Positions 54,057 to 56,744 of a stretch of 64,000 nt of DNA are shown in pieces. Each line of letters begins with the position of its first letter. Positions within the stretch are counted from its first letter, which is position 1. The translations under genes and the position numbers were made by a program. Below the pieces are notes generated by a model. That model was not told the DNA's origin, did not search any database, and saw only the letters and a program-made list of their open reading frames with translations. The stretch lies in contig NC_003074.8 in assembly GCF_000001735.4 (NCBI RefSeq), positions 9,052,101-9,116,100 on the forward strand. Direction: 5' to 3'. Source of the stretch: Arabidopsis thaliana. Taxonomy: Eukaryota; Streptophyta; Magnoliopsida; Brassicales; Brassicaceae.

Positions 54057-56744
54057 TTAACAGTTTCTGCTCTTAATTACCAGAGAAGCTAGCCACTTCG
54101 GTTTATATAAAGAAATGAGTTGTGCTATTGCCAATCCAAGTAACACTCCAATTCCGTACCCTATTGCCACTGCTTTCCAGTTTAACACTTGCTCATCTTC
54201 TTCCTCTTCTTCTTGTTCTTTAGGATGTTGTGCTGGTGGTGTGTTAGTCCCGAAGCAACTTTCTTGAAGAGGAAAACCGCAAAGCCCTGCATTTCCTTCA
54301 AATGACGATTTAGGTTGCCCAGTTATTTGTGTTCCTTGTGGTATTTCACCAATGAGTTGGTTGTGAGACACGTTCACGTATGCCAAAAACGAGAGGGTCC
54401 TTAGGCCATTAGGAATAGTCCCTGAGAGTTGGTTACTTGATAGGTCTAGTGACTCCATCTTCTTAAGATTGGCGAAAGAAAGAGGAATATGGCCTGTGAA
54501 GGCGTTGTTCGATAAGTTGAGTGCGATCAGTGCCTTTAAGAGACCAATAGATTCAGGAATTTCTCCTTCAAGTCTGTTTCCTGAAAAATCAATGGTGGCT
54601 GAGGAAGTAAGGACGTTCCTTTGCTCCATAGATAGACCTTTATATCGTAAATCTATAGTTTCATAATAGGTGAGGTGATAGTTCCCGAAAATAACCTTGC
54701 CATATACCATATATAGACCCAGATCTTCATTCATCGTGTGTGATGATGCTTTCCAATTCACAAAAAAGTCTGAGGACAAGCTTGTCGACGGCCGGCCGCG
54801 GCCGGCCGTCGACAAGCTTCCGGTTAGTTTGTTACCAGCTATCTCCAGTATCCGCAGCTCAGGAAAACCCAGAGGACCTTCATTAGGAGGAGATAGAGGA
54901 CCATAGAATTTGTTTGAACTGAGGAGAAGGACTTGCAATTTCGGTAAAGCCTTGAGGGAGAAAGGAAATGTATCTTTGATTCCGTTGTGGTCCACACTTA
55001 GAAACTGTAGAGCTGAGCAATTTATAAGAGACCTTGGCAGCTTCCCTGTTAATCGATTGTAGCCAACGTCGAGTGACCGTAGAGGCGTATCCTCATAATA
55101 CTTGTCAGGAATACTTCCTTCCAAGTTGTTCTTTCGGAGTTTCAAATACAATAAGTTACTCAGACATGGAGGAATTGGTCCGGTGAAGTTGTTGTAGCTT
55201 AGATCAAGAACATCAAGCGAGCTTCTATTACAGATTGAAAGAGGTATGTCGCCTCCGAATCTATTGTCTATTGCAGAGAAATAGTTGATAGAGAGCGGTA
55301 GATGCGGGAGTGCCCCTTCTAAACTGTTTGTATCCAAACTTAAGATCTGCACTGATGAATTTACTAAAACTTCTGATGACCCTTCAAAGCCAGTTAACAA
55401 ATTATCTGTAATGAACACTGAGCTCAGACGAGGAAGGCTCCATAACCACTCTGGAAATTTCCCACTGATTCTATTGTTGGATAAGGCAATATACTCCAAA
55501 TTATGAAGGGTCTTGAAGACGTTAGGGAAATCACTGATGTCGCAATGCTCCAAACGCAACACTTCCAGGGTAGATGGAATGTATGAATCCAAAGTTAAAC
55601 TAGCCTTTGATATCCAATCACCGGAAAGATCGAGGAGCAACAAAGATTTGAGAGAGGAGAAGAGACTTAAGTCAATTGGGTAGCTTGTGTTTAGGAAAGA
55701 AAGGTCGAGCTCTTTGAGGTTGATGAGCTTTGAGATAGGCTCTAGGATTTTTCCTTCGAAATGGTTTTCACCTAGGTGCAAACTCTCTAGCCTTGATGAC
55801 GAAGATGAGTTAGGAACTTCAATTGAACCGTTGAGATTGTTTCCTTTTAATGAAAGATAGGATAAGAAAGGCATAGTGAAGAGAGAAGAAGGGATTGTTC
55901 CAGAGAAGTGATTACCAAAAAGATGTAGAATGGAGAGCTTGGTTAGATTTTGTACAAGCGGAAGACTACCAGTGAAGTGGTTCAAGGGAAGGTACAACTC
56001 GGTTAACTGGGTTAGGTTACTAATAGTGGGAGGAACTTGACCGAAGAAGCTATTAGAGGAAACATCCAAGACCTCTAGTTTGTTGAGATTGCCAAATTCA
56101 TAAGGGAGTGAAGAGGAGGTGAAGTTGTTGTAACGGAGATTAAGGTAAATGATGTGGTGCAACTCAAAGAGGCTACTATTGGGATTCAAAATTCCAGAGA
56201 AGTGATTATAAGAAACATCTAAAACTCTGAGCTTGCGTAGATTCCGCGCAAATGATAAACTACCAGTGAGGTCATTATTGGAAAGGACTAAGGCGGAAAG
56301 CATGCTTAGGTTACTAAATGAAAAAGGAACTTGGGCGAGGAAGCCACTACTTGAAAGAGACAATACCTCTAAGTTGTTGAGCATTCCAAACTTGGAAGAA
56401 ATTGAAGAGGAGGTGAAGTTGTTATGAGGGAGAAGAAGGGAACGGAGATGATGAAACTGGAAAAGGCTACTGTTAGGTTTCAGAGTTCCGCTAAGACATG
56501 CCCTGAGTTGTAGCATCGTGACCGCACCCGTGGAGTCATCGCACCACACTCCATTCCAAGGGTCACTATGGTTGCAAGCACGAGTATCAAACTCGTTCTT
56601 GAACTGCGTAAAGGCTTGAATCTGGTGGGGACCACAAGCACCAAGACCAACAACAGGGTTATTAAAAGTGAAGAAGCTTGAAGGAGAGACACAAGATAGT
56701 AAGAGTAGCAAGAGAAAATTCAAACTGAAAAGCAATTCAGACAT
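54057..56744 (-). CDS. RLP40: LRR receptor-like protein (probably RLP40), interrupted by a 12-codon linker-like insertion
   Basis: An intronless minus-strand ORF of 895 residues from [10 protein letters not shown]. The architecture is as in RLP39: signal peptide, LRR N-cap ([17 protein letters not shown]), about 25-30 LRRs, island ([20 protein letters not shown]), terminal LRRs, C-cap [10 protein letters not shown], acidic run, transmembrane helix ([19 protein letters not shown]). Residues 645-656 ([12 protein letters not shown]) have no counterpart in RLP39 or RLP41, where GSL is followed at once by PPDFF or PQDFF. They are encoded by a GC-rich palindrome of restriction sites at a HindIII site. 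Without them the protein would be 883 residues and colinear with its paralogues. The insertion falls just before the island domain. Whether the two halves belong to one natural gene should be treated as open. Confidence 0.85.
54778..54819. other. Perfect 42-bp palindrome HindIII-SalI-FseI-SacII-FseI-SalI-HindIII
   Basis: AAGCTT, GTCGAC, GGCCGGCC, GC, GGCCGGCC, GTCGAC and AAGCTT follow each other without a gap; SacII (CCGCGG) is at the centre. The net insertion is 36 bp relative to the paralogues, which have a HindIII site (RLP41) or a near match (RLP39) at this point. The nearly all-GC core in an AT-rich locus and the stacking of rare-cutter sites indicate a synthetic linker. Confidence 0.95.

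Follow-up and report, generated by a model that had tools for sequence, protein, structure and literature searches.

The reference RLP40 gene of Arabidopsis thaliana contains, at 54778–54819 of the window (the 64-kb stretch of chromosome 3 analyzed here, 9052101–9116100), a perfect 42-bp palindrome of abutting restriction sites. We consider this very probably a laboratory artefact, a cloning linker retained in the reference, with one linker and two half-linkers counted together in that judgment. The linker would have arisen in a cloning step and presumably was never present in the plant. A synthetic cloning linker was also the main proposal of the initial annotation of this DNA, and it is strongly supported by the anatomy of the site, by its uniqueness, and by a public RLP40 protein (P0001) that does not have the 12 residues encoded by the insert. 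The insert brings no new biology; the immune-receptor gene would be affected only as a reference error.

A palindrome of restriction sites

The two 21-nt arms are 100% complementary with no spacer between them, and the base pair just outside is unpaired, so that the palindrome ends exactly at these positions. The full string is AAGCTTGTCGACGGCCGGCCGCGGCCGGCCGTCGACAAGCTT, which reads HindIII-SalI-FseI-GC-FseI-SalI-HindIII (6+6+8+2+8+6+6), all sites abutting; these elements account for every one of the 42 bases, and the central GC lies inside a SacII site (table 1). Both the position and the site map agree with the earlier description of a palindrome built only of HindIII, SalI, FseI, and SacII sites.

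Table 1. Positions of the palindrome, its component sites, and the RLP reading frames in the window
Feature	Position	Strand	Remark
RLP39 frame (paralogue; TAGCTT, no insert)	47083..49911	-	Listed from GTG; true start probably further in; name from the initial annotation
RLP40 ORF, 926 aa with insert	54057..56837	-	Gene name taken from public record P0001
42-bp perfect palindrome (natural HindIII site + 36-nt net insert)	54778..54819	.	
HindIII, left end	54778..54783	.	Natural site and duplicate (the other being 54814..54819) indistinguishable
SalI, left arm	54784..54789	.	
FseI, left arm	54790..54797	.	EagI and NaeI sites overlap it
SacII at symmetry centre	54796..54801	.	
FseI, right arm	54800..54807	.	
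SalI, right arm	54808..54813	.	
HindIII, right arm	54814..54819	.	
RLP41 frame (paralogue; HindIII, no insert)	58003..61056	-	Listed from TTG; true start probably further in; name from the initial annotation

The 42-bp structure is far beyond chance: it is the sole perfect palindrome in the window with arms of at least 9 nt, and in 30 windows simulated with a first-order Markov model trained on the window the longest arms ranged from 7 to 12 nt, with a maximum of 12. From the base counts, a hand calculation puts the expected number of palindromes with 21-nt arms at about 5e-8 per window. The 30-nt core (54784–54813) has a GC content of 87% compared with 37.9% for the window, a measurement that agrees with the earlier remark that the core is nearly all G and C in an AT-rich locus; the GC-richest other 30 nt in the window contain 22/30. 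Across the 119.66-Mb genome (7 contigs) the 42-mer is present in a single copy, and no further occurrence of its 21-nt half was found in the whole genome with up to three mismatches allowed. FseI has 212 sites genome-wide, approximately one per 560 kb, and two of them are found here only 10 bp apart. The window contains 41 HindIII sites in total, and no sites for FseI, SalI, or SacII were found in it outside the palindrome.

The net insert amounts to 36 nt, consisting of an AGCT overhang and a self-complementary 32-nt core, and its ends are cohesive with HindIII, leaving AAGCTT on either side. A second reading of the 42 bp is a pair of adaptors, each with the sequence AGCT-TGTCGAC-GGCCGGCC-G, abutted at a blunt G/C centre. 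With this composition, every base is explained either by a single 36-mer annealed to itself or by two such adaptors joined at their blunt ends.

RLP40 and its homologues at the insertion site

The 926-aa ORF encodes a leucine-rich-repeat protein, in which the insert is in frame and contributes residues 676–687. Across the site, a stop occurs in one of the three frames of the coding strand, and it is located in the flank and not in the insert. Alignment with RLP42 puts the insert after L643 and before P644, a placement to which several others are equivalent; it falls where the repeat preceding the island domain ends, 36 residues ahead of a conserved tyrosine that matches RLP42 Y680. The RLP42 encoded in this genome has 890 aa, with Y680, K689, Q695, E696, and E751 at the numbering given in the literature (PMC12686451). 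It should be noted that P0001 begins at Met32 of the 926-aa ORF, its second methionine, so that residues 1–31 of this frame may be noncoding.

RLP39, RLP41, and RLP42 belong to the same family and cluster as RLP40 and are collinear with it; the 12 residues of RLP40 are missing from all three. The alignments thus agree with the earlier claim of 12 in-frame residues absent from RLP39 and RLP41, and RLP42 likewise does not have them. At the place where RLP40 reads CTAACCGG-AAGCTT-(insert)-GTCCTC, both RLP41 and RLP42 read CTAACCGG-AAGCTT-GCCCC, a HindIII site without an insert, and RLP39 has TAGCTT, also without an insert. The parsimonious reading of these sequences is that the HindIII site would be ancestral and common to RLP40, RLP41, and RLP42.

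When 5.77 billion proteins were searched, 2460 matched, of which the best 120 were listed, with P0001 ranked first. This protein of 883 aa is named "Receptor-like protein 40" in one source and "disease resistance protein-like [Arabidopsis thaliana]" in another, and it sits on a separate record of 23,403,063 bases, compared with 23,459,830 for the contig of this genome. Taken from Met32 and without the 12 residues, the RLP40 of the window is identical to P0001 at 883/883 positions. P0001 is the representative of a cluster of 17 members and was compared as a protein, and the other 16 members may include carriers of the insert. At the protein level, one or more other chromosome-scale records therefore contain RLP40 without the insert, though possibly from clones shared with this one; P0001 agrees in its residues with the window's RLP40 and may derive from the same clones and not from an independent plant.

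Among the best 120 of the 2460 matches, the spacing at the site is that of P0001 in 111 proteins, a number that includes P0001 itself and the window's own RLP39 (P0007) and RLP41 (P0008), and one protein has two extra residues; the remaining eight are unalignable at the site and were counted neither way. In none of these 112 alignable proteins are there 12 additional residues at the site, and the peptide encoded by the insert was found in 0/120. Searching with the 45 residues from 668 to 712, which include the insert, retrieved seven proteins; all of them are within the 120, and they match the flanks and not the whole insert. In this search a Brassica napus protein (P0050) outscored P0001, mainly because it has the flank in two separate copies and not through a match to the insert.

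Proposed linker ligation and the question of a clone join

The simplest route to the observed string would be that a self-complementary synthetic 36-nt linker with 5'-AGCT ends was ligated, in cloned DNA, into RLP40 at its natural HindIII site. Joining a cut A^AGCTT end to an AGCT-ended duplex would add exactly 36 nt, regenerate HindIII on both sides, and leave a 42-bp palindrome. The sequence of such a clone would then have carried the linker, unremoved, into the chromosome 3 consensus. As the insert is free of stops and its length of 36 nt can be divided by three, RLP40 would have stayed open, the linker unnoticed and passing as 12 ordinary residues. That a linker had been ligated into a natural HindIII site was also part of the initial annotation, and this part is upheld by the HindIII-cohesive ends, the self-complementary core, the site in RLP41 and RLP42, and the form of P0001 without the 12 residues.

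Alternatively, two copies of a HindIII adaptor could have been joined blunt end to blunt end, with neighbouring HindIII fragments each bearing a HindIII-SalI-FseI adaptor and nothing missing between them. We regard these two half-linkers as a possible but unlikely variant, which forms part of the laboratory explanation and does not add to its probability. The palindrome can be read in this way and the evidence for the laboratory origin fits equally; two ligations are however required where one suffices, and the two routes lead to the same sequence.

Self-complementary linkers and adaptors with restriction-site cohesive ends are general cloning practice. Like these oligonucleotides, the insert is a palindromic duplex with HindIII-compatible ends, stacked sites for rare cutters, and a duplicated target site, although its SalI/FseI/SacII order matched no named product and its exact string no record searched. 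Vector or linker contamination is a recognised kind of fault in assembled reference genomes. The RLP40 insert resembles such faults in being a probable non-genomic cloning sequence in a finished chromosome that is missing from P0001, and differs from them in being in frame and stop-free and in lying internally instead of at the end of a contig.

BLAST of the 42 bp against 72,556 plasmid, 50,697 phage, and 20,395 Escherichia coli records, none of these collections being a vector database, gave no full match. Partial matches were found in 153 plasmid records (best E-value 0.1 among the 20 rows listed) and 101 phage records (best E-value 2 among the 20 rows listed); with a query cover of at least 80%, there was one plasmid record at 82% identity and one phage record at 78% identity, and the E. 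coli genomes gave no match at all. A 20-base half of the string was absent from viral contigs, and a 14-base part of it was not found in a literature search. The literature searches returned no paper joining "HindIII linker", FseI, and SalI, and none joining TAIR10, vector contamination, misassembly, and BAC. The empty site (25 flank bases plus HindIII) was also sought in bacterial, archaeal, and viral contigs, where it would represent plant contamination, and none was found there.

The initial annotation had further suggested that RLP40 may join two clones, perhaps of two RLP genes, with the intervening DNA missing; the linker would then mark the junction of two separately cloned HindIII fragments, and RLP40 would be a chimera. 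This claim was not borne out and we judge it very unlikely. RLP40 aligns through the site with RLP39, RLP41, and RLP42 free of gaps apart from the 36 nt and with no codon lost, and on either side of the site RLP42 is closer than the other two, with an identity of 96.3% upstream (5') and 93.1% downstream (3') in the coding sense. A join would find some support in the HindIII sites at both ends, a site which is common to RLP41 and RLP42 and would make an in-frame swap possible, and in the similarity to RLP42, which is somewhat lower 3' than 5' of the site; at coding positions 2251–2550, about 190 nt beyond the insert, RLP39 or RLP41 is closer than RLP42 for 300 nt. However, the 150-nt segment containing the site is 95.6% identical to RLP42 and the following one 96.7%, so that no step marks the site, and similar drops occur far from it, at coding positions 1–150 and 901–1200. 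P0001 has both halves in one protein without the insert, though its clones are possibly shared with this genome. The best other match in the genome is RLP42, 94% identical over the gene; given this, and given that RLP42 is the nearest on both sides, neither half of RLP40 copies another gene in the assembly.

The comparison of the window with itself shows the same arrangement. Homology in the RLP39 locus runs over 46987–47808 and then 47803–49839, corresponding to RLP40 53960–54782 and then 54813–56847, and in the RLP41 locus over 57809–58723 and then 58717–60750, corresponding to RLP40 53866–54783 and then 54813–56847. The BLAST pieces are collinear on both flanks and broken only for the insert, and in both paralogous loci they share 6 or 7 bases, which represent the HindIII site. 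These alignments do not support the view that two RLP genes were fused at this site to give RLP40.

Separately, we observed that the similarity between RLP40 and RLP42 is patchy: it reaches 95–99% over long stretches and falls to approximately 91–94% where RLP41 or RLP39 is closer (coding positions 901–1200 and 2251–2550). Such a pattern resembles the outcome of gene conversion, or of mosaic exchange among members of the cluster, and the changes are not at the linker.

Possible natural origins and consequences for RLP40

The reading as a real plant insertion, in which the sequenced Col-0 line would carry a tiny natural palindromic element or its footprint flanked by a 6-bp target duplication of AAGCTT, is in our view extremely improbable. 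The insert is in frame and stop-free, and the two flanking copies of AAGCTT resemble a target-site duplication; around an inverted repeat they formally fit the pattern of a transposon, and ligation into HindIII predicts the same. Against this stand the composition wholly from abutting restriction sites, a core that is so much richer in G and C than the window, and the lack of the insert in the otherwise identical P0001 and in the 112 alignable among the best 120 proteins. An insertion or footprint of a small MITE-like transposon was rejected on the single copy, with no relative in the genome within three mismatches of the 21-nt half. Commercial transposon-based linker insertion was rejected as well: the kits leave target duplications that are unrelated to HindIII.

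It is scarcely credible that the 42 bp is truly in the sequenced Col-0 seed stock, for example through an engineered or contaminated line, in which case an immune receptor gene of some laboratory Col-0 plants would contain an in-frame insertion of synthetic origin. Least probable of all, to a degree that we consider negligible, is an evolved feature of RLP40 by which the 12 residues would alter the repeat beside the island domain and hence ligand specificity: the proximity to the tyrosine matching Y680 and the report that RLP40 is insensitive and RLP42 responsive to polygalacturonase (PMC8960721) would fit it, but the public protein named RLP40 is without these residues, they are in none of the 112 aligned proteins, and a palindrome of restriction sites in the DNA is not expected from selection at the protein level.

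If the insert is an artefact, the reference RLP40 has 12 false residues just ahead of the island domain. This concerns a gene in experimental use: according to one study, RLP40 served as the polygalacturonase-insensitive paralogue of RLP42 in domain swaps with RLP42 (PMC8960721), and a structural study from 2025 argues from the conservation in RLP40 of the ligand-contact residues of RLP42 (PMC12686451). Models of RLP40, synthetic genes, and primers designed from this sequence would inherit the artefact, constructs amplified from plants should be without the 12 residues, and variant callers would be expected to report a 36-bp deletion in plants without the linker. An in-frame, stop-free linker remnant can pass finishing, and screening finished genomes for palindromes composed of adjoining restriction sites would cost little and be worthwhile.

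Beside the RLP cluster, the window also contains a direct tandem duplication of approximately 11.2 kb (22409–33529 and 33629–44783), the copies of which are 98.7% identical and encode an identical 484-aa ORF (30222–31676 and 41481–42935). A repeat of this size next to the cluster would hamper the clone-based assembly of the region.
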